Source of the DNA: Pseudohongiella nitratireducens
GTDB lineage: Bacteria; Pseudomonadota; Gammaproteobacteria; Pseudomonadales; Pseudohongiellaceae
Direction of reading: 5' to 3'
NCBI RefSeq assembly: GCF_001642735.1
Contig: NZ_LWHM01000021.1
Span: 1 to 64,000 of the forward strand
DNA length: 64,000 bases
A program made the translations under genes and the position numbers. The notes beneath the pieces are model-generated. The model saw nothing but the letters and a program-made list of their open reading frames with translations, made no database searches and was not told where the DNA came from. This document shows, piece by piece, positions 31,683 through 47,248 of this stretch (its first letter is position 1; every line of letters starts with the position of its first letter).

Positions 31683-31830
31683 GAACGCTCCGTTTTTTGC
31701 GACGGTATGTGTCTGTTGTCACAAGGGTTAAGCAATCTGGCTTGCAAAATACGCTGTGCATTATAGAGTTAAAAGACGATCCCTGAAAAAGCGTAATATA
31801 AATAAGAGTGCAGGAGGTCTGGCGGACAGT

Positions 31831-33300
31831 ATGGATGAACTGAACCAAAAGCAGCATGGACTGTTAACATTCGGCGGCGATGGCCTGGTATTGGCAGGTC
31901 TGAAGCAGTGCGCGCAGGCTTTTTGTTTATCCGTTGCTTGCCTTGCTATGTCAATGGTGCAGGCAGCGGACTCAGATCAGCAACTTGATAATGTTGCTGA
32001 GATGGAAGGGAGGGATCTTGCCGAGGGTGTTGTAGAAGCTGCCCGGGAAGCTGCCAGACAGGTAGAAAATCTGTTGCAGGAAGTGAATTTACTGCGCCAG
32101 GGTATTGCGGCACAAGTCGCTGAAGACGGCAATACCTGGCATGTAGGCATCGCTGAATCCCAGTTGGCCCTCGGTGTTGCATTGCAGTCATTGGATGATC
32201 ATCCGGCAGCAATCACTGAGTTAGAACGTGCTGTCCACATTAATCGTGTTAATCATGGGCTGTTCGCTCTTCAACAAATACCGGCATTGTTGCTTCAGGT
32301 GCGAAGCCATCTGGCCATGGAGGATTGGCAAGCTGCTGATGAACGCATGCAGTATGCATTCTATGTCCACACCCAGGCGTTGGCTGACAATGAAGCTGAG
32401 ATGATTCCGGCCCTGGTTGATTATGCGCACTGGCAACTCAGCTCATATGCAGACGGGCATGGTGCGATCCCTTCGGTGCGGCTGGTTGATGCCTACCAGT
32501 TATTACGCGTGGCGGACAGCATCATTGACCGGCACCCTACGCCGGAAGCTTATCCTCGCGCCAGCTACCTGCGTCAGATGGCCTACATCGCCTGGCTGAT
32601 CCAACATAGTGATCTGGATATGTGGCTGGATGCGGACAAGCTGGATGCCCGTGTGGTTGAGGATGCCTGGGTTATTAACATGACCGACGAGAATTATGTC
32701 AGTCAGCGTAGCCCTTATCTGATGGGTGAATCAGCGTTGGAGGAGATTGTTGCTCTGCGCAAGGCCCAGTTTGAAGCTACAGACGAAGACTCTCCTGATT
32801 ACAGGCAATCGTTGCTGCTTTACAGCGAAGCGATCAAGCAGCACGCAGACTGGAATCTTGTCTTTGAGCGTCGTTATGAGGCCATGGATTTATATCAACG
32901 GTCATGGCAACTGATGGCAGCGCACAGTGGTGCCGCGCCCGAAGAGGGTTTTCAGGATGTTCTTATGCTGCCATTGTTTCGTTCTGATGATATTGTCAAA
33001 GGGCACAATGAGACTGGGTTGACCGTACCCAGATATACCCGGGCCTTTCTGAACGAAGATGTGTTGAGCATTCTGTCTTCCGGCAGGGCTGCAAGAAGGG
33101 TAACCCTGGAGTTTGAAATTAACCGTTTTGGCAGGCCGACACAGGTGGAAGTTGTTGAAGTCGCGCCTGAAGATGACCAGGATCTGAGACGCCAGGTGGT
33201 GAGTCTTGTGCAAAGTCGGAAATTTCGTCCATGGATTGTGGATGGGGAAGCGCAGGATAGCGAACTGTTGACCAAGAGCTTCAGTTTCGGAATGGATTGA
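31831..33300 (+). CDS. Exported TPR protein with TonB-C-like domain
   Basis: The first gene of the large envelope operon encodes about 489 residues. A hydrophobic stretch (CLSVACLAMSMVQA) near residues 30-45 looks like a signal peptide. TPR-like helices follow at about 100-200 (VGIAESQLALGVALQSLDDH). The last 90 residues fold like TonB-C: VTLEFEINRFGRPTQVEVVE, then LVQSRKFRPWIVDGEA. TonB-C domains usually contact outer-membrane receptors. There is no N-terminal anchor like that of TonB. The start is uncertain: an earlier ATG (31756) is in frame, and AGGAGG lies 14 bases before the one chosen. Confidence 0.65.
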   Translation: MDELNQKQHGLLTFGGDGLVLAGLKQCAQAFCLSVACLAMSMVQAADSDQQLDNVAEMEGRDLAEGVVEAAREAARQVENLLQEVNLLRQGIAAQVAEDGNTWHVGIAESQLALGVALQSLDDHPAAITELERAVHINRVNHGLFALQQIPALLLQVRSHLAMEDWQAADERMQYAFYVHTQALADNEAEMIPALVDYAHWQLSSYADGHGAIPSVRLVDAYQLLRVADSIIDRHPTPEAYPRASYLRQMAYIAWLIQHSDLDMWLDADKLDARVVEDAWVINMTDENYVSQRSPYLMGESALEEIVALRKAQFEATDEDSPDYRQSLLLYSEAIKQHADWNLVFERRYEAMDLYQRSWQLMAAHSGAAPEEGFQDVLMLPLFRSDDIVKGHNETGLTVPRYTRAFLNEDVLSILSSGRAARRVTLEFEINRFGRPTQVEVVEVAPEDDQDLRRQVVSLVQSRKFRPWIVDGEAQDSELLTKSFSFGMD

Positions 33301-33405
33301 CAGCCAGATACAACGCAATAATGCAGTGTTCAGGCGGTCTGATATAAGTAACAGTATTTGAATTTATACAGGCAGTACGCGACTGTGTCGCGTCAGGAGC
33401 AGTCA

Positions 33406-34848
33406 ATGAATCGTCGATTCCACAGACCGTTAGCACTGAGCAGTGCCGTCACGCTGGCATTGATTCTGACGGCATGCGAGACGACTCAGCAGCAACAGTC
33501 GCAGACCATGCCGCAGATGCCGAGTATGCCGTCGTCTTCTTCATCGTCGAGTTCCTCCAGCAGTAGCTCGTCTTCAAGTTCCTCGTCCAGCAGTTCCTCA
33601 TCCTCTGGTGGCATGCCATCCAGTGGGTCGGCGTCATCCTCAGGCTCACCATCTTCCGGTTTGCCTTCACCCAGTATGCCGTCCTCGGGAATGCCTTCAT
33701 CTTCAAGCGGTTCCAGCGGCTCAAGTGGAGCTACGGCCTCGTCGTCAGGCATGCCTTCATCCAGTAGTGGATCAGGAGCGTCGTCAGGATCTGTAGCATC
33801 AGGTGGGTTACCGGGATCAGGCAGTTCAGGGTCAGCGGGCAGCAGTGGTGGCATGTCAACCAGTAGCGGTGGTGCCAGTGGCACTGGCGGTGTGACTGTC
33901 AGTGGTAGTAGTGGTATTCCGGACTTTTCCCGTGGGCGTCAATCGGCCTCCGGCTCAGGCGCCGGTAGTACCGGTGCCGGGGCATCCATGCCAGGTGGTT
34001 CGCAAAGCGGACAAGGAACACAGCCTGGAGTGATGAGCGGGACTGGAAGCAGTTCGGGTGGCATGAGCACTGGTGGCATTGCCGGCGCTACAGGCACTGA
34101 TGCTGGTGGTACATCGACAGGTTCTGGCGCCATGGCTGGTACAGGTAACCAGTCTGGTTCAGGTGTCAATGTCAACGTAGACACTGGTGCCGGTGCCGGT
34201 GTCGGTGTTGGTACTGGAGGTATCAGTGTTGGAGGCATTGACGTTGGAGGTATTGGCTCGGGTACTGGTACGGATGTTGGTATCGGTACTATGCCCGGAA
34301 CGGGAGGTATAGGTGCAGGGACAGGCAGTGCAGGTGGTATAGGCGGTACCGGCACCATGACGGCAGGTGAGCGGGTTGCCGTACTTGATGGGCAACTGGG
34401 TCGCGGTTATGAAGATTTTGATGGCATGATCCTGGATGAACGAGCCAGGGCGCAGCGGGAAAGTAATGCAGTGGGCTCTGATCCGGCGGGGCTTTATGAC
34501 AACCCAGCCAATCAGCCAGGTGGACGCCAGGGGCAACCTGGAGGTGATAATGGGCAGTTGCCAGGTGTCACACTGCCGGGCGAAGGCGGGATAATTGCTG
34601 GTACTGGCAGAGGGCAGGGCGATGGTCCTGAGCCACAAGCTGGTGGCTCTGGCGGTTCCGTAGGCGGTTTGCAGGGCGGTGAAGGCTCTGGTGAAGGTGC
34701 TTATCCGGTACCTGATGACATCCCCAGCGGCAATAACGATGATGTTGTTGCCCGGCAGATCCGCGAAGCGGCAATGAACGAGCCGGATCCGGAGCTGCGT
34801 GAAGCCTTGTGGGATGAGTATCGTCGCTATACTGGAATCAGTGAGTAG
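33406..34848 (+). CDS. Poly-serine / glycine-rich lipoprotein
   Basis: A 480-residue low-complexity lipoprotein. The signal peptide ends in a clear lipobox, LTAC, near residue 25. A run of almost 30 serines follows about residue 43, then Ser/Pro/Gly/Met-rich repeats such as GMPSSSSGS, then a Gly/Thr/Val-rich stretch (SVGGIDVGGIGSGTGTDV). The last 45 residues are different: charged, probably helical, with NEPDPELREALWDEYRRYTG. I recognise no family. It probably sits in a membrane leaflet with a long flexible arm. The start has AGGAG upstream. Confidence 0.8.
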   Translation: MNRRFHRPLALSSAVTLALILTACETTQQQQSQTMPQMPSMPSSSSSSSSSSSSSSSSSSSSSSSSSGGMPSSGSASSSGSPSSGLPSPSMPSSGMPSSSSGSSGSSGATASSSGMPSSSSGSGASSGSVASGGLPGSGSSGSAGSSGGMSTSSGGASGTGGVTVSGSSGIPDFSRGRQSASGSGAGSTGAGASMPGGSQSGQGTQPGVMSGTGSSSGGMSTGGIAGATGTDAGGTSTGSGAMAGTGNQSGSGVNVNVDTGAGAGVGVGTGGISVGGIDVGGIGSGTGTDVGIGTMPGTGGIGAGTGSAGGIGGTGTMTAGERVAVLDGQLGRGYEDFDGMILDERARAQRESNAVGSDPAGLYDNPANQPGGRQGQPGGDNGQLPGVTLPGEGGIIAGTGRGQGDGPEPQAGGSGGSVGGLQGGEGSGEGAYPVPDDIPSGNNDDVVARQIREAAMNEPDPELREALWDEYRRYTGISE

Positions 34849-34872
34849 TAAGAGACAGACAGGAGCCGATAA

Positions 34873-36075
34873 ATGGCAGTATCAAAGGTAACGTTGACTG
34901 GGCTAGCGTTGACAGGATTAAGGGCAACCCTTCTGCTGCTGGTAATGGCAGGATGTTCGACGACGTCAGTGAAATCAACGGAGTTTGTTCCTGTTGTCCA
35001 GGACAGTATCCCCATGGACGAGGCTTTGATCCTGGATGTGGGTGTCCACGTTTTTGATCCGGGTATTGATGAAGTCGAAGATGATGAGCTCGATCGGACC
35101 AATTTCGATATACGTCGTGCTGAGGCCCGGTACACACCCTACCTGATGGCTGACACATTGCAGCGATCCGGTAACTGGGGTGTAGTTCGTGTGATACCTG
35201 GCGACCGTAGTGTCATGGACATTAATGTTGAAGGGAAACTGCTGCTGTCCAATGGCGAAGGTATGATTATCGAGGTTTCGGTCAGTGATGCAACAGGACG
35301 TCACTGGTATACCAAAACGTATGAAGAACATATCAGTCAGTACAACTATGAACCCCGGCAGCGCCAGCTTCATGATCCATTCCAGGTGATTTACAACCAG
35401 ATCGCCAATGATTTGCTGGAATACCGACAGGAGAATGTTGCCGATGAGAGTATCCGCAATATCCGTACAGTTGCTGAGTTGCGTTTTGCGGCCGAGTTTG
35501 CACCAGAGATATACGGTGATTACTTAACAACTGATGAGGATGGTATAAGGCAGGTGGCGCGACTTCCTGCTGAAAATGATCCCAATATGGCCAGGATTCG
35601 TGAAATTCGTGAAAGGGACTACCTGTTTGTCGATACGATCCAGGATTATTACGCGACCTTTGTGCGCGAAATGCGGGGTCCATATGACGCCTGGCGTGAA
35701 GTCAGCTTTCAGGAAACGCTGGCGCTGGAAGACGCAGAGCGTTCGGCAAGAAGGCGGTTTATTACAGGTGCTGCAGCCATCGCTGGTGGTATTGCGGCGG
35801 TAGGTTCCAATAACGCAGCTGCACAAACGGCAGGTATTGTTGGTGTCGGTGCGGGTGCTTATCTGGTACGCAGTGGCTTTGACCGCTCGGCCGAAGCTGA
35901 AATGCATATTGCCGCGCTGCAGGAGATTGGTGAGTCCATGAACTCAGAGGTTGCTCCCAAAGTCATTGAACTGGAAGATCGCAGTATCATGCTCACAGGC
36001 ACGGTTGAAGAACAGTACGAGCAATGGCAAGACATTCTAATGGAAATCTATCGTACGGAAACGGGCGGGTTGTAA
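34873..36075 (+). CDS. Lipoprotein with glycine-zipper segment
   Basis: A 400-residue lipoprotein with lipobox VMAGC near residue 28. Residues 40-200 form a probable globular domain with RYTPYLMADTLQRSGNWGVV. Around residues 297-335 there is a glycine zipper-like hydrophobic segment (GAAAIAGGIAAVGS and GIVGVGAGAYLV), as in proteins that insert into or assemble at the outer membrane. No family is recognised with confidence. The stop shares one base with the next ATG (TAATG), so it is coupled to the membrane TPR protein. Confidence 0.78.
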   Translation: MAVSKVTLTGLALTGLRATLLLLVMAGCSTTSVKSTEFVPVVQDSIPMDEALILDVGVHVFDPGIDEVEDDELDRTNFDIRRAEARYTPYLMADTLQRSGNWGVVRVIPGDRSVMDINVEGKLLLSNGEGMIIEVSVSDATGRHWYTKTYEEHISQYNYEPRQRQLHDPFQVIYNQIANDLLEYRQENVADESIRNIRTVAELRFAAEFAPEIYGDYLTTDEDGIRQVARLPAENDPNMARIREIRERDYLFVDTIQDYYATFVREMRGPYDAWREVSFQETLALEDAERSARRRFITGAAAIAGGIAAVGSNNAAAQTAGIVGVGAGAYLVRSGFDRSAEAEMHIAALQEIGESMNSEVAPKVIELEDRSIMLTGTVEEQYEQWQDILMEIYRTETGGL

Positions 36076-37571
36076 TGGCAGGTAAACAAGGTAGTCAGGC
36101 AGTATCCCGGTGGGTATGGGTGTCTCTTGCTGCACTGGTTTTGTTGGCACTGGCTGTGATATTCGTGTTGCCAGGGGTTGTGGAGCGTTACGAGCTGCCA
36201 TTAGTAAAGCGGCCAGAGCCAGCTGCAACCGAAGTTGTTGCCGGAAGCAGCGCTAATAGTGGTAGAAATTCCGGCGGCAATGTTTCTCCTTTTGAAGAAG
36301 CGCAGCAGGCACGCCAGCGTCGGGCAGCCCAGGATATCCTGGCCAGCCTGCTGGAACGACAGTCTGAACTGGAAGCTTTTGCTGTGGAGGAATGGGCGCC
36401 AGATGCCTTTGAATATGCGCTGGCGCAGGCAGAAGAAGGTGACGTTTTCTATCGCCAAGGTGCTTTTGAACAGGCTGAAACGCTTTACCAGCAGGCTGAC
36501 GACGGCCTTGCTGCACTGCAAAGTGCCCGTGATAACGAATATCAGTCGGCCATGGCGCGTGGTGAAACAGCCATGACGGACGGTGACGCTGAAGCGGCTA
36601 CGGCGGCGTTTGAATTAGCCTCCCGGATTCAGCCCAGCAGTCAGGCTGCAGCCGATGCACTGGACAGGGCAAGGGTTCTGGAAGATGTGCTGGCATTATT
36701 GGTTGAAGGGCAGGCTCTGGCCGAGAGTGGCCAACTGGAAAGTGCCAGGGACCGCTACCAGAAGGCCTTGGGGCTAGATGCTGCGCACCCCCAGGCGCAA
36801 TCGCTGGCATCAGATATCGAGCAACAAATTATTGACCGCAACTTCTCCACAGCAATGTCAGCAGGGTTTACTTCGCTGCAGGCGGGAGATACCGATGCGG
36901 CGATATCGGCATTTGAAAATGCATTGGCGATCAAGCCAGGTTCTGACCAGGCCGAAGCAGCGATTCAGCAGGCTCGGGATCAGGTGGAGATGAGTGAAAT
37001 TGCCCGGCTTCGTGAGCAGGCTGAAGACCATGAAGAGAACGAGCGCTGGCAGGAAGCTGTGGAAGCTTATCAGCAGGCATTGAATCTGGATGCCAACCTG
37101 GTATTTGCTCAGGAAGGCAAAGATTATTCCCAGCGTCGCCTGCAGCTGGACCAACTCATGCAGGCCAATCTGGATGACCCGCTAAGGCTTTCTGACCAGG
37201 CTGTTTATCAAGAAGCTCAAAATTTGCTCGGCGTTGCCACCGGGTTAGTGGCTGACCTGAGAGAGGATGGTGTTCACCCGGGAGATCGCCTGTTATCTCA
37301 GGTTGATGAACTGGCTGTTGTGCTGGAAAAAGTTGTTATCCCCAAAAACATAACATTGAATTCGGATGGAATGACATCGGTAACATTATACCGGGTCGCT
37401 GAGCTCGGCACTTTTGAGCAAACCACAGTAAGCCTGACTCCGGGTCGTTATGTGGCAGTTGGCACGCGCAGTGGCTACCGGGATGTCAGGGAAGAATTTG
37501 TCGTTGGACTGGATGACGCACCAGCCGCTGTCAGCATACGCTGTCATGACCAGATTGCGTCTGCGGAGTAA
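36075..37571 (+). CDS. Membrane-anchored TPR protein
   Basis: A 498-residue protein with one N-terminal helix (WVWVSLAALVLLALAVIFVL) and a large soluble part expected in the periplasm. Multiple tetratricopeptide-like repeats run from about 90 to 360; examples are GDTDAAISAFENALAIKPGS and WQEAVEAYQQALNLDANLVF. The C-terminal 90 residues appear beta-rich. TPRs bind other proteins, so this is probably a scaffold of the envelope complex. It is preceded by a coupled lipoprotein gene and followed after eight bases by the PEGA gene. Confidence 0.8.
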   Translation: MAGKQGSQAVSRWVWVSLAALVLLALAVIFVLPGVVERYELPLVKRPEPAATEVVAGSSANSGRNSGGNVSPFEEAQQARQRRAAQDILASLLERQSELEAFAVEEWAPDAFEYALAQAEEGDVFYRQGAFEQAETLYQQADDGLAALQSARDNEYQSAMARGETAMTDGDAEAATAAFELASRIQPSSQAAADALDRARVLEDVLALLVEGQALAESGQLESARDRYQKALGLDAAHPQAQSLASDIEQQIIDRNFSTAMSAGFTSLQAGDTDAAISAFENALAIKPGSDQAEAAIQQARDQVEMSEIARLREQAEDHEENERWQEAVEAYQQALNLDANLVFAQEGKDYSQRRLQLDQLMQANLDDPLRLSDQAVYQEAQNLLGVATGLVADLREDGVHPGDRLLSQVDELAVVLEKVVIPKNITLNSDGMTSVTLYRVAELGTFEQTTVSLTPGRYVAVGTRSGYRDVREEFVVGLDDAPAAVSIRCHDQIASAE

Positions 37572-37579
37572 TCAGCACA

Positions 37580-39706
37580 ATGCAGGATACGCAACCTCAG
37601 AACAACCGTCCTGACGGTGTCGAAGAAATTCAGTCGGTGGACTTTTCTCCACCACCCGCCCGGATTAAAGAAAAACGCTGGCGTCCGCGCTGGTATCACT
37701 TTGTTATTCTGCTGGCAGCAGCCAGCGTCTTCTATACTTCCTGGTTTGTGTTGACTGCCAGATCAGTATTTATCGATGTGACACCTGCTACGGCAAACAT
37801 TGAAATTGATGGGGGGCTGGCCGTTCAGGTGGGGCCTCGTTACCTGATCCGGCCCGGGCAATACCAGGTATCGTTCAGTGAATACGGTTATGATGATTTG
37901 CAGGCAACCCTGGGGGTATCCGAAGCCACTGCACAGACACATGAATATCAGCTTAGTCCTAAAGAAGGCTATTTGAATCTGACTGTTGATGCTGAACCCA
38001 TGCCGGGCAACTCGGTTGATATGCTGGCACGCATCAAAATTGATGGCGTGGATGTGGGTGAGGCGCCGCTGGAGCAGTTTCCAGTAGAGCCGGGCACTCA
38101 TAATCTGGTGATAGAAAGCGAGCGTTATCTGGATGTGAGCCAGGAGATAGAGATTGTTGGCAGACTTGAGGAGCAAGAGCTCAGCGTAGAATTACAGCCA
38201 GCGTGGGCAGAACTATCGATAGTTGGTGCAAGGAATGGCGCTGATGTCCTGTTGGATGGAGAGGTGGTGGGGCAAGTGCCACTTCAATTTGCACAAATGC
38301 AGGGTAATTATGTGCTGACCGTGCGAGAGTCGGGGTACAAAGCCTGGCAGCAGGATCTGGTACTCACAGCAGGTAATGATCAGCGCATTGATGTGCCGGT
38401 ACTGGAAGCTGCCGATGGTCTGGTATTCATTCGTTCCGAACCAGCCGGTGCCAATGTCACTGTCAATGATGATTTTATGGGGCAGACACCGTTGGAGCTG
38501 ACGCTGCCACCTGGCGAGGATTACCGCATTCGTCTGTTCCGGACGGGTTATGATGTTGCTGAACGCGAAATCACTACGTCATCTGGTGAATCGACAGATC
38601 TGACGGTTGCACTTGATGCGATAACCAGCCCGGTTCGGTTGATCGCTCAACCGGCGGATGCAGAAATTTACGTCGACGGTGAGTATCGCGGTCGTGTCGA
38701 CGAGCAGCAGAATCAACAAATAGAATTGATGGCAGCGGCACAGCGTATTGAGATCCGGAGAGACGGCTACGTGCCTTATGAGTCGGAGTTTGTTGCTCGT
38801 CCAGGTATCGATCAGGAGATTCGCGCCACGCTGGTCACCGAAGAAGCAGCCCGGTTGGCAGCCATTGAGCCGGAAATCACATCGCCAGGGGGACAGACAC
38901 TGCAACTGTTTTATCCGTATGCATACACCATGGGAGCTTCGCGGCGAGAGCCGGGGCGGCGCGCTAATGAGGCCTTGCGGGATGTGGTATTAACACGGGA
39001 TTTCTACATGTCAGAAAACCTGGTCACCAATGCGCAATTTAAACAGTTTCGTTCTGAACATGCCTCTGGCGTTCTGCAGGGGCAAACGCTGGATAATGCC
39101 AGTCAGCCGGTGGTCCAGATCAGCTGGGACGATGCAGCTTTGTATTGTAACTGGCTCAGCCAGCAGGCAGGCCTGGACCCGTTTTATATTGTTGAAGAGG
39201 GCAATGTCACCGGTTTTAATGCTGGCTCAACAGGTTATCGTATGCCGACAGAAGCTGAATGGGAGTGGGCCGCGAGAACTGAGGGCGAGTCAGATGTCAC
39301 CCACAGGTTTCCTTGGGGTAACAGCTGGCCACCCAGCAATAATGAAGGCAATTTTGCCGATGAGTCGACGCAATCATTTCTGGCACAGTTTATCCGTGGC
39401 TATAACGATGGTCATGCGGTGACATCCAATACCGGTCAATTTCCCCCCAATGCGCGCGGTCTCTATGATATGGCAGGAAACGTGTCTGAATGGGTGCATG
39501 ATATTTATGGCGCTGTGAGTGGTCTTAACACAGCGGCAGAAACAGATCCGATGGGTCCGGAGGCCGGGCGCTATCACACGGTTAAAGGTTCTTCCTGGCG
39601 GCATGGTTCGGTAGTAGAGCTACGGGCTTCTTACCGTGACTTCAGTGAAGAGCCCCGCAATGATGTAGGTTTTCGGGTAGCCAGGTTCCTGGAGGAAGCG
39701 CCATGA
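37580..39706 (+). CDS. Membrane-anchored PEGA repeat + FGE/SUMF1-fold protein
   Basis: A 708-residue protein with a cytoplasmic N-terminus, one helix (YHFVILLAAASVFYTSWFVL), about four PEGA-type beta repeats (LVFIRSEPAGANVTVNDDFM then GQTPLELTLPPGEDY) and a C-terminal FGE-sulfatase fold from about residue 440. The latter has YRMPTEAEWEWAARTEGE, RGLYDMAGNVSEWVHD and VKGSSWRHG...DVGFRVAR. The active-site cysteines of true formylglycine-generating enzymes are not seen, so it is probably a non-catalytic binding domain. PEGA domains often bind the cell wall or other envelope parts. Confidence 0.85.
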   Translation: MQDTQPQNNRPDGVEEIQSVDFSPPPARIKEKRWRPRWYHFVILLAAASVFYTSWFVLTARSVFIDVTPATANIEIDGGLAVQVGPRYLIRPGQYQVSFSEYGYDDLQATLGVSEATAQTHEYQLSPKEGYLNLTVDAEPMPGNSVDMLARIKIDGVDVGEAPLEQFPVEPGTHNLVIESERYLDVSQEIEIVGRLEEQELSVELQPAWAELSIVGARNGADVLLDGEVVGQVPLQFAQMQGNYVLTVRESGYKAWQQDLVLTAGNDQRIDVPVLEAADGLVFIRSEPAGANVTVNDDFMGQTPLELTLPPGEDYRIRLFRTGYDVAEREITTSSGESTDLTVALDAITSPVRLIAQPADAEIYVDGEYRGRVDEQQNQQIELMAAAQRIEIRRDGYVPYESEFVARPGIDQEIRATLVTEEAARLAAIEPEITSPGGQTLQLFYPYAYTMGASRREPGRRANEALRDVVLTRDFYMSENLVTNAQFKQFRSEHASGVLQGQTLDNASQPVVQISWDDAALYCNWLSQQAGLDPFYIVEEGNVTGFNAGSTGYRMPTEAEWEWAARTEGESDVTHRFPWGNSWPPSNNEGNFADESTQSFLAQFIRGYNDGHAVTSNTGQFPPNARGLYDMAGNVSEWVHDIYGAVSGLNTAAETDPMGPEAGRYHTVKGSSWRHGSVVELRASYRDFSEEPRNDVGFRVARFLEEAP

Positions 39707-40005
39707 GAAAAGACAGGCTTTATGCTGTGCTACTGGGTGTGCTTTTTTCAAGTCCGATACCCTTGCTTTCCGGTGATGTGTTGGCGCAGCCAACCGATGA
39801 AACTGTTGCTGAAGACGAAAATCAGGATCAGGAAACAGTTGCCGAAGATACCGGCAATGATCAAGCCGCTGCACAAGAACAGGCAGACAGGCCTGATATC
39901 GATAATCAGCCAATCGAAAGCGATGGCAGTAACAGACCCGGACGATTTGTACCGTCCGAACAAATATCACTTGACCTCGGCGTGTCATTTCCAGTCGATG
40001 TCTGA
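39703..40005 (+). CDS. Small acidic secreted protein
   Basis: A 100-residue product with a basic N-terminus and hydrophobic signal (LYAVLLGVLFSSPIPLLSG) that probably ends at VLAQ. The mature part is acidic and rich in Asp, Glu, Gln and Asn, so likely disordered. No family is recognised. Its ATG overlaps the stop of the PEGA gene by four bases. It lies just upstream of the ExbB-like gene, so it may be a small accessory subunit of that complex. Confidence 0.7.
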   Translation: MRKDRLYAVLLGVLFSSPIPLLSGDVLAQPTDETVAEDENQDQETVAEDTGNDQAAAQEQADRPDIDNQPIESDGSNRPGRFVPSEQISLDLGVSFPVDV

Positions 40006-40026
40006 CCAGAAATACAGGGAACCTGC

Positions 40027-40866
40027 ATGAAACAGAAATATTTGTCAGAAGTCGTCTACCAGATATTTGCGCTTGTGATAGTCGTCATAGTCGTGCATGC
40101 CATTTATGTCGCAGTCATTCGACCCAACGCAGATATCATAGCCGAGCAGCAAAGTGCCATGCAGGCAGCAGATGAGAGCTATGTCCCGGAGCGTTCGGTA
40201 TACATCGTGATGCGTGACTTCGAGCAGGAAACCTGCATTATTCTGTTCTTCTGGGCGCTGAGCATGGTGGGAATGAAAACGGTGCGTACCATGCGCGAAC
40301 GACGGCTGCTGGATCACGAATTACTGCAGGTCCCTGAAGGCACCAGCATTCTGCCAGAGGATGCCAGGCATTATGCACGACCAGTGCAGTCCTTGCCCGA
40401 GAAAGAGAGGCGGTTTCTTTTACCCAGAGCCATTCTTGCAGGGCTACATCGCTTTGGCACCACGCGTAATGTTCAGGATGTTTCAGCAACGATCCGTGAT
40501 GTCTGTGACAGTGAGGCGGACCGGTTGGAAAGTGAACTGGCCATCGTCCGGTATATTGCCTGGGCAATACCGTCGATAGGCTTCCTTGGTACAGTAAGAG
40601 GTATCGGTACTGCCCTGGGTCAGGCTAACCAGGCCGTTTCAGGTGATATTCTGGGTGTGACCATGAGCCTGGGGGTGGCATTTAATTCAACTTTCGTGGC
40701 GCTGGTAACCAGTATTATGCTGATGTTCGTGCTACACCAGCTATCTTTGATTCAGGACCGTCTGGTGCTGGACAGTCAAACCTATTGTGACGATCACCTG
40801 ATTCGTTTTTTGCAAGTGCCGGGCAAAACGGCGCGACAGTCAGATGAGTCAGCGGAGACCGTATGA
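40027..40866 (+). CDS. MotA/TolQ/ExbB-type proton channel protein
   Basis: A 279-residue inner-membrane protein of the ExbB/TolQ/MotA family, which forms the channel part of ion-driven motors. Four helices are visible: near residues 10-32, 70-88, about 178-200 and about 215-240. The diagnostic stretch is AWAIPSIGFLGTVRGIGTAL, followed by GVTMSLGVAFNSTFVALVTS. An extra N-terminal helix and a loop of 85 residues between helices 2 and 3 are visible. The stop overlaps the next ATG (ATGA). The following two VWA proteins supply candidate ExbD-like partners. Confidence 0.88.
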   Translation: MKQKYLSEVVYQIFALVIVVIVVHAIYVAVIRPNADIIAEQQSAMQAADESYVPERSVYIVMRDFEQETCIILFFWALSMVGMKTVRTMRERRLLDHELLQVPEGTSILPEDARHYARPVQSLPEKERRFLLPRAILAGLHRFGTTRNVQDVSATIRDVCDSEADRLESELAIVRYIAWAIPSIGFLGTVRGIGTALGQANQAVSGDILGVTMSLGVAFNSTFVALVTSIMLMFVLHQLSLIQDRLVLDSQTYCDDHLIRFLQVPGKTARQSDESAETV

Positions 40867-42281
40867 GGACAGCGCTGTTACTCAATGACAAGCGAATTGC
40901 CTGGTATGAAGATGGTCATGAGAAATATGCCAGTCCAGGCTTTATCTATGCCGAGAAGCAAGGGCTGCACTTTGGTGAACGGGCTGAGCAACAGAGCCGG
41001 GTACATCCTCTGAATACGCATCATAGTTTCTGGCACCGCTTGAGTCAGGACCGGTTTTCCCGCCCTGTTGTTAATTGCCGTCATGCCGCCGACCTGGTTT
41101 TTGCTCACCTTAGTGACATGTTCGAATCAGGCAAGTCAGGCGATGCTACAGGACAATCGGCATTGTTGCTAACGCCTGCCGGCTATAGCGAATCACAGCT
41201 GGCACTTCTTTCGGGTGTTGCCAGGCACAGTCAGTTCCAGCCTGCCTGGATGATGCCGATTCCTTTGGCAGTGGTTGGTAGCCAGCTGCCTGATACTGAG
41301 CTTTGTGTGGTCGTTGAGCAGTATCAGCATGGTTTAACGCTTAGCCTGATTCGACAGCAACAGCATGCCTTGGTTTGTGACAATGCACAGCTGCTCCCTG
41401 ATCTTGGCTATTTCAGTATGAGCAATAAATTACTGCAGGCAGCCAGTGATGCTTTTGTTGCCCAGACCCGTTATAACCCGCAGCAAAATGCTGCCTGGGA
41501 GCAGTCGCTGTATGATGATCTGCCACGCTGGTTAACGCTGCTTAGTCAGCGGGAGACAGTTATTCCATGTCAGTTACAAACGGACAGCCAGCAGGTCTCG
41601 GCAACGTTGCAGGCGCTGGACTGCATGGATGAGCTGGCACCATCACTGGAAAAAATACATCAGCAGTGGCAGGGAATAAAACAGGACTTTGATAATGTCC
41701 CGGTATTACTCGCTGGCAATAGCCACTTGATACCCGGACTGATGGATATCTTTGCAACGCAGCAAGTCAAAGTTGTAGGCGATCATGAGATTGTCCGCTT
41801 TGCCTCAGATTATGTCTCGCGACTTAGCAGTGATGTTGAGCCTGGAAGTGAACGGTCGGTATCACTGGTTAAAAATATTCACAAGACGCTATTAGCCCGT
41901 ACTGGCAATGGCGCCCCGGCAGAACAAGAACATTTCTCTGGCGGGTCAGCGTTATCGTCTGGCTCGTTTTCCTCCGGTGTTTACTGGCTGTATCAAGGGG
42001 TAGCACGGTCTGTTTCACCTGATAGGGGGTGTCGGCTGGGCCTGATTGGTAGCGTGGTCAGCGATCTTTCCTCGGCAACAGATACGAATCAGGCGCATGT
42101 GAAAATATCAGGTACAGCAACCGTTGAAAAAATAAGTGGGCTGAGCGCGCAGCTCAATGGACGGGATGTCGCGCCAGGTGCGCAGCTGGTGCCGGGTGAT
42201 GTATTGAGCCTGGGTGAACAACAGGTCACGTTTATAGCAGTGGAGCACGACGTAGCGGTGGAACATGGCTCGCAAGCGTAA
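40863..42281 (+). CDS. Degenerate Hsp70/actin-fold protein with FHA-like C-terminus
   Basis: A 472-residue soluble protein with no signal peptide, so probably cytoplasmic. The first 340 residues follow the Hsp70 layout: SPGFIYAEKQGLHFGERAEQ, then ALLLTPAGYSESQLALLSGV, AWMMPIPLAVVG and ELCVVVEQYQHGLTLSLI. The glycine-rich phosphate loops of real Hsp70/actin ATPases are not evident. The C-terminal segment LSAQLNGRDVAPGAQLVPGD then VLSLGEQQVTF resembles an FHA-like fold. It may dock the complex to a phospho-protein or act as a regulator. This is inference from pattern only. Confidence 0.5.
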   Translation: MRTALLLNDKRIAWYEDGHEKYASPGFIYAEKQGLHFGERAEQQSRVHPLNTHHSFWHRLSQDRFSRPVVNCRHAADLVFAHLSDMFESGKSGDATGQSALLLTPAGYSESQLALLSGVARHSQFQPAWMMPIPLAVVGSQLPDTELCVVVEQYQHGLTLSLIRQQQHALVCDNAQLLPDLGYFSMSNKLLQAASDAFVAQTRYNPQQNAAWEQSLYDDLPRWLTLLSQRETVIPCQLQTDSQQVSATLQALDCMDELAPSLEKIHQQWQGIKQDFDNVPVLLAGNSHLIPGLMDIFATQQVKVVGDHEIVRFASDYVSRLSSDVEPGSERSVSLVKNIHKTLLARTGNGAPAEQEHFSGGSALSSGSFSSGVYWLYQGVARSVSPDRGCRLGLIGSVVSDLSSATDTNQAHVKISGTATVEKISGLSAQLNGRDVAPGAQLVPGDVLSLGEQQVTFIAVEHDVAVEHGSQA

Positions 42282-43362
42282 AGGCGGTGGTTTTAATCCA
42301 TTGAGCATGGCATTCCTGGATGTCATGTCCTGCGGCTTCGGTGCTGTCGTGCTGCTATTCCTGATTCTTGACCATACCGTCACAGAGTCTAATGAAGAAG
42401 CTGACCCGGCCACAACAGCAGAAGTCAGTTTGCTGGAGGAAGAAATTGTCGATGGCCGGGAAAATCTGGTTCAGCTCAGAAATACACTGGACAGTGTCAG
42501 CATGGAAGTGGTTGAAGCAGAAGGGCTGGCTGATCGCATCCAGCAACAGATAGATGATTTTATGGCGCAGCTGGCTGCCCTGGAAGGAGATTCCATGGCG
42601 ACAGAGGAGAGCGTTGAACAGCTCCGCGCTGATGTTGAATCCCTGCAGGAGGAGATGCTGAGGCTGCAATCGACTGCGATTGAAGAGCAGGGCAACAGCA
42701 ACCGGGAGTTCCTGGGCGATGGCGACCGACAGTACCTCTCCGGTATGTACCTGGGTGGTAATCGTATTTTGATTCTGGTGGATATGTCAGCCAGTATGCT
42801 CGATGAATCTCTGGTGAATGTAATCCGTACCCGCAATATGGATGTGGGTACACGCCGGAATTCGGAGAAATGGCAGCGTGCCACACGGATTGTTGACTGG
42901 ATTACCAGTCAGTTGCCCCTGGTCAGCCAGTATCAGATTTTTGGCTTTAACGAGACTGTCCGTTCAGCATTGGACGGAACTGAGAATCAATGGCTGGAAG
43001 TGGCTGATGAAGACCAGATAAACCTTGTCGCCGATGCTGTCGGCAATTGGGTGCCAGAGGGCGGTCATAACCTCCAGGCAGCAGTCCAGGCTATCAGGGG
43101 CTTGCAGCCTTTGCCCGATAATATTTACCTGGTGACTGACAGTCTGCCAACCCGAGATAACAGTGAGCCCCGGTCGTCAACAGTCACGCCCAGGCAGCGA
43201 CTGGACCTGTACTGGGATGCGATTGAGAATCTTCCGGCCAATATTCCGGTCAATACTATATTACTGCCGATGGAAGGCGATCCGGCAGCCGCTGCTGCCT
43301 ATTGGCAATTAGGCCTGATAACAGGCGGATCATTCATAACGCCATCGAGAGACTGGCCATGA
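42265..43362 (+). CDS. Membrane-anchored coiled-coil VWA protein, ExbD-like helix
   Basis: A 365-residue protein with a short basic N-terminus, a transmembrane helix, a coiled coil (about residues 45-140) and a VWA domain to the end. The helix starts F17-L-D19-V-M, like the F-I-D-V-M of ExbD where the Asp conducts protons. The VWA MIDAS motif is D173-M-S-A-S177 in RILILVDMSASM. Predicted topology is N-in, with coiled coil and VWA in the periplasm. It overlaps the upstream gene by 17 bases and the next by four. The pairing with the ExbB-like channel suggests a stator subunit. Confidence 0.82.
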   Translation: MARKRKGGGFNPLSMAFLDVMSCGFGAVVLLFLILDHTVTESNEEADPATTAEVSLLEEEIVDGRENLVQLRNTLDSVSMEVVEAEGLADRIQQQIDDFMAQLAALEGDSMATEESVEQLRADVESLQEEMLRLQSTAIEEQGNSNREFLGDGDRQYLSGMYLGGNRILILVDMSASMLDESLVNVIRTRNMDVGTRRNSEKWQRATRIVDWITSQLPLVSQYQIFGFNETVRSALDGTENQWLEVADEDQINLVADAVGNWVPEGGHNLQAAVQAIRGLQPLPDNIYLVTDSLPTRDNSEPRSSTVTPRQRLDLYWDAIENLPANIPVNTILLPMEGDPAAAAAYWQLGLITGGSFITPSRDWP

Positions 43363-44369
43363 GCAGACGCAGACGAAGTACAGAAGATAACGGCGGGATT
43401 GCATTCCTGGATGTGATCTCCTGTGGCTTTGGCGCCATCATTCTGTTGTTGATGATCACTGAGAACTCCGCTCCAGTGACACTGGAGAGCACGGAATCGC
43501 CCCGGGACGAGCCGATTGCCGAGTTACAGGAAACCCTGTTTGAAATCCGTGGTGAAACAGAGATAGTTAACCGGGATCTCAACGCACGACGTGAACAACT
43601 GTCAGCCTATCAGCAGCGTATTGCACGGCTGGAGCGGGAGATGTCAAACATACGGGGCGAGTTTGAAACCTCTGATGAAACGGCTGATCAAATGCAGCAG
43701 GAACAGTCGCAACTGGCAATAGCCAAGCAATCGCTAACGGAAGAAATGCAGCGCCTGCTGGGTCAGAGTTTTACACGTGAAGAAAATGTCATCGGTGGTA
43801 TTCCGGTCGATAGTGAATACATTATTTTCATCATCGATACCTCAGGCAGCATGTTTTATAACGCATGGCCGCGCGTGCTGAGTATGGTCGATGAGATTTT
43901 GAACGTATATCCGGAGGTGCAGGGTATCCAGGTTATGAATGACATGGGCGATTACATGTTTCCGGCCTATCGGGGGCAATGGATTCCAGATACGCCAGCA
44001 CGTCGTCAGGCCATTATCAGCACATTGCGCAACTGGGCACCGTTCAGTAACAGCAGTCCGGTGGAGGGCATTACCCGAGCGATTAGCGCGTTCTATCAGC
44101 CGGGGCAGAAAGTCAGTATTTATTCATTTGGAGATGATTTTCAGCAGGGCGGTTCCATTACCCGGGTCATAGAAACGGTCGACCGGATCAATGCTGACCA
44201 GAATGATGGAAGTCGCCTGGTCCGTATCCATGCCGTCGGATTTCCGGTATTGTTTGATCTGGATCCGCGGTTTCACGAAAGTGTGTACCGTTTTGCCACG
44301 TTGATGCGTGAACTGGCAGAGCGTAATGGTGGCAGTTTTGTCGGGCTGAATTCATATCAGGCCAATTAG
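43359..44369 (+). CDS. Second membrane-anchored coiled-coil VWA protein, ExbD-like helix
   Basis: A 336-residue paralogue of the preceding protein. The transmembrane helix has F16-L-D18-V-I, then SCGFGAIILLLMI, closely like its neighbour. A coiled coil spans about residues 45-140 (QQRIARLEREMSNIRGEFET). The VWA MIDAS is D160-T-S-G-S164 in YIIFIIDTSGSMF. The rest, including DMGDYMFPAYRGQW, differs from the first copy, so the two may form a heteromer. The ATG overlaps the previous stop (ATGA). The upstream 57 bases of open frame lie inside the previous gene. Confidence 0.82.
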   Translation: MSRRRRSTEDNGGIAFLDVISCGFGAIILLLMITENSAPVTLESTESPRDEPIAELQETLFEIRGETEIVNRDLNARREQLSAYQQRIARLEREMSNIRGEFETSDETADQMQQEQSQLAIAKQSLTEEMQRLLGQSFTREENVIGGIPVDSEYIIFIIDTSGSMFYNAWPRVLSMVDEILNVYPEVQGIQVMNDMGDYMFPAYRGQWIPDTPARRQAIISTLRNWAPFSNSSPVEGITRAISAFYQPGQKVSIYSFGDDFQQGGSITRVIETVDRINADQNDGSRLVRIHAVGFPVLFDLDPRFHESVYRFATLMRELAERNGGSFVGLNSYQAN

Positions 44370-44398
44370 TATACGAAAAGTCAGAGTAGGAGCCAGCA

Positions 44399-45040
44399 GT
44401 GATTAAAGGTCGCCAGTCAGTCAATGTATTCACGTTGCTATTGTTGATGATACTGGGTGGTTGTGGTGCCAGCACAGTTACAGTGCAGGGCAATTATCCA
44501 ACGCCGAATGTCCCGCCCAAAGCATTAACCTTGGGTGTGTATTATCCAGACGAGTTTCGTAATTTTGTATATACTGAATTCACCGATCGCGGTAACGAAG
44601 AGTATTTTGTTCAGGCGGGAAACTCCCACATCGAACTGTTCAATACGCTTTTGCCTGCTATGTTCCAGCGTGTTGTTGTTCTGGATGATCTGGCAGCTGC
44701 AGGTAGCGCTGAAGTTGATGCTGTGTTTATGCCATCTATCGATGAGTTTCAGCTGGGCATTCCGGCAAAAACGCGACTGGATGCTTGTGAGGTCTGGGTC
44801 CGGTACAACATGCGGTTGACCCGACCCGATGGCGGCTACATTGCTGACTGGGTAATGACAGCTTATGGCAAGTCCAGCCAGGGAACTTTCAGTTCAACCG
44901 AACGAGGCATTAACGATGCGGCAGTGGCATCCATGCGGGACCTGGCATCCAATTTTGCACTGACTTTTGATCAGATTCCGGAAGTCAGTGACTGGCTCAA
45001 TGCCAGAAATAATGCAGTCACTGCATCTCGGGCGAATTAA
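44399..45040 (+). CDS. Small lipoprotein of envelope operon
   Basis: A 213-residue lipoprotein starting at GTG with AGGAG seven bases upstream. The lipobox is ILGGC near residue 22. The mature part contains LTLGVYYPDEFRNFVYTEFT, VDAVFMPSIDEFQLGIPAKT and a C-terminal helix. The layout of a soluble domain with repeated beta strands recalls LPS-assembly or CsgG-type lipoproteins, but I cannot name a family. It follows the second VWA gene by 29 bases. Confidence 0.75.
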   Translation: MIKGRQSVNVFTLLLLMILGGCGASTVTVQGNYPTPNVPPKALTLGVYYPDEFRNFVYTEFTDRGNEEYFVQAGNSHIELFNTLLPAMFQRVVVLDDLAAAGSAEVDAVFMPSIDEFQLGIPAKTRLDACEVWVRYNMRLTRPDGGYIADWVMTAYGKSSQGTFSSTERGINDAAVASMRDLASNFALTFDQIPEVSDWLNARNNAVTASRAN

Positions 45041-45058
45041 CAGGCGGAGGGTGAGGGC

Positions 45059-45742
45059 ATGATCAGAGCAGGCTGGCATTTAATCAACCCGGGCGTCCGG
45101 TTTTGTCTGGTCGCTCTGGCTGCGTTATTCCTGGCAAGTTGCACCACGACAACAATTGATCAGTACCGGCAGGGTGATACGGGTATTGAGGGACATGAAA
45201 GCGTTGTTATCCTGGGGCGGCGCCAAGGTGCGGCTTATGAAACGCGCGAGGAATTTGTTGAGTGTGTAGGCGATCGCATGGGCAATGGGCGTGATGGCGT
45301 CAATATTGTCCCGGAACAACTGTTCGTGGATGCTTTGTTTCCCTGGTTTGAACCTCGCACTGCACCCATGCGCAGTGATGACCTGGAGCAATTGATGGCA
45401 CAGCCACTGGTGCCGGAAAAAATCAGCGAATTTGGTATACGCTATATCGTCTGGCTGGATGGTGAAACCCAGCGCACCAATGAGATGGGCTCCATTTCAT
45501 GCGCGGTTGGTCCCGGCGGTGGTGGCTGTTTTGGTTTCGGCTCCTGGGAAGATGACTCCAGTTTTGAAGCGCGTATCTGGGATGTCTCTTCGCGCACAGC
45601 CGTGGGTACGATCAGTGCAGATGCTTCTGGACAGTCTTATATGCCAGCGGTTTTTGTGCCGATTCCTTTGATAGCCAGGGTTGAAGCGAAAGCCTGCAAT
45701 ACGCTGGCGGATCAGCTCAAACAGTTTGTGATAGGCGGTTAA
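45059..45742 (+). CDS. Second small lipoprotein of envelope operon
   Basis: A 227-residue lipoprotein. The hydrophobic signal is FCLVALAALFLASC with Cys near residue 28 as the lipid site. Further on is ESVVILGRRQGAAYETREE, and a Gly-rich turn, GPGGGGCFGFGSWEDDS, with two cysteines nearby. The C-terminal half is predicted to be beta-rich. No family recognised. It lies 18 bases after the preceding lipoprotein gene and 33 before the M48 gene. Confidence 0.75.
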   Translation: MIRAGWHLINPGVRFCLVALAALFLASCTTTTIDQYRQGDTGIEGHESVVILGRRQGAAYETREEFVECVGDRMGNGRDGVNIVPEQLFVDALFPWFEPRTAPMRSDDLEQLMAQPLVPEKISEFGIRYIVWLDGETQRTNEMGSISCAVGPGGGGCFGFGSWEDDSSFEARIWDVSSRTAVGTISADASGQSYMPAVFVPIPLIARVEAKACNTLADQLKQFVIGG

Positions 45743-45775
45743 CCCCGCACTGATGGTATTAACCGGGGGAACAGT

Positions 45776-47248
45776 ATGAATTTAGCACTGCGAGACCTCG
45801 CCAAAGTAACAGCTTTAGCTGCAATCGCACTTTTTCTGCTACAAGGTTGTGCAGTGAACCCGGCAACGGGTGGTCCCAACCTGGTACTAATGTCCGAAAA
45901 CCGTGAACTGGAAATTGGCGAGGAGGAGCATGAGAAAATCATTGCTTCTGCCCAGGTTGTTGAGGATGAAGCCCTAAACGCCTATGTACAGAAAATCGGT
46001 GAGCGTCTGGCAGCCGCCAGCCACCGACCTGATCTTGAATACACGTTCACCATTATTGACAGCCCTGAAATAAACGCCTTTGCCCTGCCAGGTGGCTACA
46101 TCTATGTGAACCGCGGATTGATGCTGTATCTGAATTCCGAGGACCAACTGGCTGCCGTCATGGCGCACGAGATTGGGCATGTAACGGCACGTCATGCGGT
46201 GCAGCAGCAGGCGCGTGGTCGTCTGGGTAATGCCGCTGCGACAGTTGGGGGTGTTGTTGCTGCGGTGGCTACCGGTAGTGGTTATATCGGTTCAGAGCTG
46301 GCTCAGATTGGCTCTATCTGGGCGGCTGCCGGTGCCAGCGGTTTTGGCCGGGAACATGAACTGGAAGCTGATACTCTGGGTTCCGAGTACCTGGCTCAGG
46401 CAGGCTATGATCCTGCTGCCATGATTGAGGTGCTGACGGTACTGAAGAATCAGGAAGACTTTAATGTCCGGGTTGCTCAGCGCCAGCCAAGCTATCATGG
46501 TTTGTTTACAACCCACCCGCGAAATGATGTGCGCTTGCAGCAGGCGGTCGCTAATTCAGGAGAGCTGGAAGGCAGCGAAATACAAGCCAGCGATTCGGCC
46601 ATTTTCAGACAAGAGATGGACGGGCTGGCATACGGGGAAACCCGCACACCAAGCGGTGACCGGAATCGCTATTATCAGGACTTGCTGAGCTACACGGTGG
46701 TTTTTCCCAATGAATGGCAGATCCGGGAAACACCAACCACTGTCACGGCAATTGCACCTGAAGAGGTTGCCAGCATCAATATATCCGTCCAGCGTCTGCG
46801 GCAATACAAAGAGCCGCGTCTCTTTATCAGAGAAGATCTCGGCATTACTGATCTGCAGCAGTCAGAATCTTTGTCACAGTATCGGCTGACGGGTTACACC
46901 GGTATTCATGAAAATGAGGCTGGCCGGCAGGAACGTGTATCAGTTCTCTATCTGGGGCCACGTGCCTTTGTTTTGCGTGGTGAAGTCAATGGTGCAGAAG
47001 AACCGGAAGACATGGATGACCTGATGCTGGCTTCCATGAGAACGTTCCGGGCCATTCAGATGAACGAGCGTGCCAGCGCCAGCTCATTACGTATCCGCTA
47101 TGTACAGGTAACCAATGGCTTCAGCTGGCCAGCGTTAGCTGCCCGCAGTCCCATTCAGCAATATCCCGAAGAGACTCTTCGCCTGCTGAATGGATATTAC
47201 CCGTATGGTGACCCTGAGCCAGGTGAGTGGATAAAAATTCTTCAGTAG
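45776..47248 (+). CDS. M48 family metalloprotease lipoprotein
   Basis: A 490-residue BepA/YggG-like zinc protease. The lipobox is LLQGC near residue 25, so it is anchored on the periplasmic side. The zinc motif is H131-E-I-G-H135, with the third ligand Glu197 in HELEADTLGSEY. The N-terminal region carries INAFALPGGYIYVNRGLM, a conserved active-site flank. The C-terminal 200 residues have no TPR like BepA but a separate mixed domain (YQDLLSYTVVFPNEWQIRE). It closes the envelope operon and could clear misassembled components. Confidence 0.9.
   Translation: MNLALRDLAKVTALAAIALFLLQGCAVNPATGGPNLVLMSENRELEIGEEEHEKIIASAQVVEDEALNAYVQKIGERLAAASHRPDLEYTFTIIDSPEINAFALPGGYIYVNRGLMLYLNSEDQLAAVMAHEIGHVTARHAVQQQARGRLGNAAATVGGVVAAVATGSGYIGSELAQIGSIWAAAGASGFGREHELEADTLGSEYLAQAGYDPAAMIEVLTVLKNQEDFNVRVAQRQPSYHGLFTTHPRNDVRLQQAVANSGELEGSEIQASDSAIFRQEMDGLAYGETRTPSGDRNRYYQDLLSYTVVFPNEWQIRETPTTVTAIAPEEVASINISVQRLRQYKEPRLFIREDLGITDLQQSESLSQYRLTGYTGIHENEAGRQERVSVLYLGPRAFVLRGEVNGAEEPEDMDDLMLASMRTFRAIQMNERASASSLRIRYVQVTNGFSWPALAARSPIQQYPEETLRLLNGYYPYGDPEPGEWIKILQ

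Follow-up and report, generated by a model that had tools for sequence, protein, structure and literature searches.

A Pair of VWA Proteins with an Invariant Membrane Aspartate, the Probable Axle of an ExbB-Type Envelope Motor in Pseudohongiella nitratireducens

The stretch of DNA described here (the window) comprises 64 kb of contig NZ_LWHM01000021.1 of the gammaproteobacterium Pseudohongiella nitratireducens. A run of closely spaced or overlapping genes on its + strand spans positions 31756-47248 and includes two adjacent genes for proteins with a von Willebrand factor A (VWA) domain, VWA-A (P0001) and VWA-B (P0002), which share 4 bases. P0001 is the second gene downstream of P0003, which encodes a channel subunit of the MotA/TolQ/ExbB family, in keeping with an earlier note on this DNA that had placed the pair two genes after an ExbB-type channel. 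It is proposed here that VWA-A and VWA-B probably act as the pair of axle subunits in a 5:2 rotary motor that is driven by ions and has P0003 as its ring. The core features of the locus are as follows.

42265..43362, + strand: VWA-A (P0001), 365 amino acids, with a basic N-terminus, the Asp helix, a coiled-coil region at about 45-140 and a VWA region at about 165-365 (from sequence only)
42319..42321, + strand: Asp19 codon of VWA-A; the residue lies early in the membrane helix
42781..42795, + strand: loop 1 of the metal ion-dependent adhesion site (MIDAS) of VWA-A, DMSAS, residues 173-177
43359..44369, + strand: VWA-B (P0002), 336 amino acids, with the Asp helix at 14-36, long helices at 53-102 and 106-135 and the VWA domain at about 154-330
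43410..43412, + strand: Asp18 codon of VWA-B
43836..43850, + strand: MIDAS loop 1 of VWA-B, DTSGS, residues 160-164
40027..40866, + strand: P0003, 279 amino acids, channel subunit of the MotA/TolQ/ExbB family, with T189 and T222 at the apparent pore Thr positions
40863..42281, + strand: P0004, 472 amino acids, with an Hsp70-type nucleotide-binding fold, degenerate phosphate motifs (by eye) and a weak FHA-like C-terminal match

The N-terminus of VWA-A reads MARKRKGGGFNPLSMAFLDVMSCGFGAVVLLFLILDH and carries Asp19, while that of VWA-B reads MSRRRRSTEDNGGIAFLDVISCGFGAIILLLMITEN and carries Asp18. Both consist of a basic segment followed by a single helix of the form FLDV-M/I-SCGFGA, exactly as the earlier note had read them. 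In alignments of relatives the Asp is kept in 119/119 A-type and 123/123 B-type helices. Counted over the whole column it is present in 119/121 A rows and 123/124 B rows, the remaining ones (L077, L079 and L098) beginning after the helix. These rows include duplicate genomes, with 116 distinct rows for A and 115 for B. The SCGFGA part of the helix, unlike the Asp, is variable: in relatives from outside the class (7 A rows and 8 B rows) CGFGA is partly altered, for example to SSAFAA or ASGLGA, and the Asp is unchanged. As judged from these alignments, the invariance of the Asp is more than chance. Close to the helix end, a His occurs in 106/119 A rows and in 0 B rows, suggesting that A and B have two different roles. 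Scans of P0001 and P0002 against Pfam, NCBIfam and PADLOC returned mostly weak coiled-coil rows, and the A profile, compared with the sequences of solved structures at E 0.1, gave six rows that match its coiled-coil part.

The channel protein P0003 matches PF01618 at 51.0 bits (cut-off 22.9). Its T189 lies in a G-x-x-G-T-V-x-G stretch and is Thr in 106/106 rows, and T222, in FNST, is Thr in 104/106, the other two rows having no match to the search pattern. We take these positions to be the pore Thr of ExbB/TolQ. P0003 also appears, by eye, to possess one further helix at its N-terminus. The channel profile found nothing at E 0.01 among the sequences of solved structures.

The channel and the pair are inherited together. 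In a survey of 274 genomes of the class, among them that of P. nitratireducens, the 20 genomes matched by VWA-A (E 1e-10) are the same as those matched by the channel subtype (E 1e-30), with one channel match per genome at the latter threshold. VWA-B (E 1e-30) matches 18 of the 20; in the remaining two, G142 and G153, the A gene lies at the end of a contig. Among the 117 loci collected, 105 contain channel, A and B; the other 12 are 11 loci cut at a contig end and one genome, G267. A and B are both present in 113/117, the remaining four being cut at a contig end, and the order channel-(P0004)-A-B is seen in 102/117. In G267 the channel gene (C39:153313-154107) lies 153 kb into its contig and the VWA pair is on another contig, C5 (L184). 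In L064 (3339-4163) and L065 (3474-4298) the channel gene is inverted relative to the rest of the cluster and shares 40% identity with P0003. Because of these split and inverted cases, the co-occurrence amounts to more than linkage or gene order. Correlations between distance matrices (0.95 for B and A, 0.88 for B and channel, 0.87 for A and channel) were set aside as evidence, since shared species history explains them. VWA-B is found in 35/35 genomes of the family, in 3/21 genomes from the other families of the order and in 15/299 genomes across the phylum, 13 of the last from one other family. At least 572 of 597 stretches of the genome collection carry a gene for a relative, and these include many Gammaproteobacteria; a search of plasmids with P0002 gave no match. 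Pseudohongiella (L066) and Seongchinamella (L120 and L123) are culturable relatives that have the pair.

No ExbD was found in these loci. Across 12,908 segments from the 117 loci, an ExbD profile whose training left out the P. nitratireducens genome had no match at E 10. As a control, the same profile recovered five of the six PF02472 (ExbD/TolR) matches of that genome, and the one that it missed is a weak MotB-like match on contig C31. None of the six PF02472 matches lies at the VWA locus, and the MotB plug, PF13677, is matched in this genome only on C26 and C31 and likewise not at the VWA locus. Elsewhere in the genome, C1:40983-41366 is an ExbD gene on a contig that has no PF01618 match. 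C31 (L274 2604-4282) carries a MotA/MotB-like pair, the B protein of which has a YLDVM helix and matches MotB_plug and, weakly, ExbD.

The most likely reading is that in a 5:2 motor the VWA pair takes the place of ExbD/TolR as axle. The earlier note had suggested that the two proteins are stator partners of an ExbB-type pore, and the invariant Asp, the channel Thr, the co-occurrence and the failure to find ExbD in the loci support this well by inference. Within such a motor an A-B heterodimer is favoured, as the presence patterns suggest, because A and B stand together in 113 of the loci and the four others are cut. One A helix and one B helix would lie inside a P0003 pentamer, and ion binding at both Asp would cause the pair to turn or switch. 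The coiled coil, which in B spans about 80 residues or some 12 nm, would convey this motion to VWA domains at or beyond the peptidoglycan, and these may in turn bind a partner through the metal site, under load. This partner is most likely to be found among the co-inherited envelope proteins, namely P0008, P0006 or the tail of P0005.

The VWA domains would thus form the output of the motor. Both proteins match PF13519 (VWA) below its cut-off of 27, at 21.8 bits for P0001 and 15.3 bits for P0002. The AlphaFold2 model of P0002, with a mean predicted local distance difference test (pLDDT) score of 66, consists of long helices and a VWA domain. Its structure matches include BatB (E 2.6e-6) and integrin I domains (E about 1e-5), with template modelling (TM) scores by query of 0.35-0.37; the top match (E 2.2e-7) is to one chain, of unstated identity, in an entry that bears the title B19V capsid. 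The fold evidence comes from the P0002 model, and the VWA assignment of P0001 from its sequence. Coiled-coil regions are present in both proteins, so that the periplasmic part proposed in the earlier note, a coiled coil followed by a VWA domain, agrees with what was found.

The MIDAS loops were assigned by eye. DxSxS is present in 116/116 B rows, and in the A rows the Asp is kept in 112/114 and both Ser in 113/114. VWA-B also has the loop-2 Ser and the loop-3 Asp in all 116 rows. At the loop-2 position VWA-A of the window carries His, where 114 relatives have Thr (105), Asn (7), Ser (1) or Ala (1). On this assignment the intact MIDAS that the earlier note had suggested for both proteins fits VWA-B, but VWA-A of the window departs from it in loop 2, and the note's further claim of a metal-dependent adhesion domain found no support beyond the VWA fold.

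Between the channel and the pair lies the gene of P0004, which matches no Pfam family; PF00012 (Hsp70) has its matches elsewhere in the genome. The model of P0004 (pLDDT 78) is matched by Foldseek to Hsp70 nucleotide-binding domains at E about 1e-13, with TM scores of up to 0.71 by target and up to 0.58 by query, and the best 50 fold matches are nearly all Hsp70. At the level of profiles, hhalign joins P0004 to DnaK at E 0.0026 with a Prob of only 11.6, over FGERAEQQSRVHP and VPAGYSESQ. The comparison with MreB gives Prob 0.1, which is nothing, whereas MreB recovers DnaK at Prob 99.4. GTT and GGGT are the phosphate motifs of this fold, and P0004, inspected by eye, has neither of them. From its sequence it is therefore probably not an ATPase. 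Its C-terminus has a weak match to a Ki-67 chain (E 0.038), the matched part of which is presumably the FHA domain. P0004 is absent from 6 of the 105 loci that hold channel, A and B. This cytoplasmic protein, missing in some lineages, would probably serve as an assembly or gating factor at the cytoplasmic face of the motor.

The remaining genes of the run, from which the partner of the VWA domains may come, encode mostly envelope proteins.

31756..33300, + strand: first gene of the run, for a secreted protein that is TPR-like in part and whose C-terminus weakly resembles TonB_C
33358..34848, + strand: Ser/Gly-rich repetitive predicted lipoprotein
34873..36075, + strand: P0008, 400 amino acids, predicted lipoprotein (lipobox by eye), no Pfam family
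36075..37571, + strand: P0007, 498 amino acids from ATG (GTG at 36072), with TPR repeats and a single membrane helix
37580..39706, + strand: P0006, 708 amino acids, with a single membrane helix at the N-terminus, PEGA domains in 5 stretches and a domain like the formylglycine-generating enzyme (FGE)/SUMF1
39703..40005, + strand: P0005, 100 amino acids, small secreted protein with a conserved C-terminal tail
44399-45040 and 45059-45742, + strand: two predicted lipoprotein genes (by eye)
45776..47248, + strand: M48 metallopeptidase, predicted lipoprotein (by eye), PF01435 at 136.5 bits

The C-terminal tail of P0005 reads RFVPSEQISLDLGVSFPVDV in the window, and its conserved form is DLGVSFPVDx. 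A tail of this type ends 68 of the 8112 open reading frames (ORFs) of the 117 loci, one per locus. Of these, 66 are small ORFs in 66 of the 106 loci with a channel gene; 62 sit 4-115 bases before the channel gene and 4 overlap it. In the other two, L055 and L105, which are identical in sequence, the tail forms the C-terminus of VWA-A. This fusion, in one lineage, suggests that the tail acts at the VWA end.

P0006 matches PF08308 at 150.7 bits and PF03781 at 144.5 bits. The best matches of its FGE-like domain in the PDB are PorK-type chains (E about 1e-16), with FGE enzymes at E 6e-14. Among 95 relatives, 43 match the pattern that was searched and none of these has Cys there; the other 52 are without the pattern. 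The protein at the head of the run (31756-33300) reaches 21.5 bits against PF03544 (TonB_C), for which the cut-off is 24.6, and is linked in near relatives. When 16 distant loci were searched with blastp, matches were found to P0006 in 13, P0007 in 12, P0008 in 11 and the Ser/Gly-rich lipoprotein in 10, several of the loci without a P0006-P0008 match being cut. The same search found the protein of 31756-33300 in 1, those of 44399-45040 and 45059-45742 in 5 each and the M48 peptidase in 3. Promoter-like sites were fewer than in shuffled sequences, and terminator-like sites were within one standard deviation of the shuffles.

Several points weigh against the proposed motor. The earlier note had called the helix ExbD/TolR-like, but profile comparison with ExbD gave weak and uneven results. 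When ExbD was the query, hhalign matched the N-terminus of A at Prob 25.7 and that of B at 2.4 (control P0006, 4.7); in the reverse direction the values were 2.8 and 1.9 (control P0007, 5.8 and 14.7). As the accepted relatives ExbD and MotB reach just 8-19 against each other, the power of this test is low. When the helices were compared without gaps and with the Asp column excluded, the best register against MotB placed Asp on Asp for both, scoring 8.8 for A and 12.2 for B, and the best of eight control families scores 6.7. Against ExbD neither helix falls Asp on Asp, the best scores of 1.8 and 7.2 coming from other registers. The MotB result is suggestive only, because the control of ExbD on MotB favours another register as well (10.5 versus 8.9). 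The functional claim is consequently drawn from the invariant Asp and the channel partner and not from likeness to ExbD. Further points on this side are the pLDDT below 50 over most of residues 1-50 in the P0002 model, the patchy distribution (20/274 genomes of the class and 15/299 of the phylum) and the choice of VWA partners, which has gene linkage as its sole basis. To our knowledge, no ion flux or phenotype is known for a motor built on a VWA pair.

These results must be set against other explanations of the same genes. The VWA proteins could be transducers like TonB or TolA, with their helices outside a TolQ-like ring whose true axle is an ExbD or TolR encoded elsewhere. A first VWA family of transducer type, beside tolQR genes, is described in the main text of PMC12204202, and the genome of P. 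nitratireducens does hold ExbD genes elsewhere, one of them (C1:40983) on a contig without a PF01618 match. Against this, no ExbD was found in the 117 loci, the Asp occurs in every row that contains the helix and the SHLS motif of that first family was not seen, by eye, in the aligned helices; a transducer role is thus considered rather improbable. A static anchor, in which the helices merely tether VWA scaffolds or adhesins and the channel protein works alone, would account for the weak profile match to ExbD/MotB and would suit VWA proteins, which are often scaffolds. An invariant Asp in a membrane helix is of no evident use to a tether, however, and the conserved channel Thr and the tight co-occurrence also make such an anchor an improbable alternative.

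The presence of an Asp and a coiled coil of its own in each protein would also permit two separate motors, A-A and B-B homodimers that share one type of ring. This arrangement appears unlikely, given the single channel-profile match per genome at E 1e-30 and the shared presence of A and B across the loci, and the His at the helix end of A but not of B suggests two roles within one pair. An anti-phage defence system of the Zorya type was rejected as highly improbable. P0003 has a weak ZorA match of 15.5 bits, but no ZorB match was found among the six proteins scanned, and VWA-B is present in every genome of the family, unlike a sporadic defence island. A type IX secretion system (T9SS) was rejected too; the GldK model gives 108.5 bits against a cut-off of 350 and no GldL or GldM was found among the scanned proteins.

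An axle formed by the VWA pair can be compared with several known machines. It shares with ExbBD and TolQR the channel family, the single Asp helix and the proposed 5:2 arrangement. It differs from them in that a VWA domain on a coiled coil stands where ExbD/TolR have their periplasmic domain, the axle proteins are of two kinds and the locus gives no PF02472 match. Its Asp helix finds its best ungapped register with MotB, and the extra helix of P0003 resembles MotA (by eye), but in contrast to MotAB the locus has no MotB_plug, and no peptidoglycan-binding domain is among the Pfam matches listed (25 of 29 rows for P0002). The Agl gliding motor of Myxococcus is reportedly an ExbB-type motor that works with the envelope VWA adhesin CglB, a separate protein; the difference here is that the VWA domain is fused to the axle helix. 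The T9SS combines an ion-driven motor, GldLM, with an FGE-fold protein, GldK/PorK, in the way that P0006 stands next to the genes of the proposed motor, but the likeness of P0006 to PorK may be one of fold alone because FGE enzymes match nearly equally. PilM and GspL are cytoplasmic actin/Hsp70-fold proteins docked on inner-membrane machines, and P0004 is likened to them as a cytoplasmic Hsp70-fold protein beside such a machine.

The closest known systems have been described in PMC12204202 (Mol Biol Evol 2025), section 8 of which presents heterologous VWA gene pairs adjoining tolQ genes without tolR or exbD (TPH-VWA, the Idiomarina loihiensis family). According to this section, a transpore helix with a conserved Asp is placed in the pentamer by AF3 models, rotation inside the pentamer is proposed and a Thr ring is reported in the channel; it reports no experiment for the TPH-VWA pairs. 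By description, the window shares with these pairs the Asp membrane helix on a VWA protein, the heterologous pair, the tolQ-like neighbour and the lack of tolR/exbD in the loci. Among the best 80 loci from a scan of named genomes, none is titled Idiomarina. Since VWA pairs with an Asp helix beside a lone tolQ are already presented there, in PMC12204202, the window holds a further member of a described kind of motor, and the core motor reading is well supported but not new. Section 8 of that paper is silent on the small tailed protein, the lipoproteins, the Hsp70-fold protein and the PEGA/FGE protein seen here, and PEGA, SUMF1, Hsp70 and MIDAS have zero occurrences in the main text (figures and supplements lie outside this scope). 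In the open-licence literature, PMC12204202 was the only paper found, among the matches listed, to describe this kind of motor. No paper there combined three of PEGA domain, von Willebrand factor, proton channel and formylglycine, and none among the matches listed united Hsp70, TolQ and von Willebrand.

It is conceivable, though doubtful, that the locus represents a new class of trans-envelope motor, with a VWA heterodimer as axle, a nucleotide-inactive Hsp70-fold protein for gating or assembly, a secreted tail docking at the VWA end and a catch-bond clutch, in which ion-driven motion would put an envelope bond under load and free it again through the VWA metal site. The abstract of PMC8837202 reports a catch bond for the MIDAS of Mdn1. 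The new leads from the window are the Hsp70-fold protein, the P0005 tail and the finding that channel and pair are inherited together even where they are not linked.

In textbooks, ion energy is sent across the bacterial envelope by the Ton, Tol and flagellar motors. The VWA pair and its channel would add a further envelope motor, one with a metal-binding domain as its output, patchily distributed in many Gammaproteobacteria. Its co-inherited parts provide concrete candidate binding partners, in particular the conserved tail and the Hsp70-fold protein.

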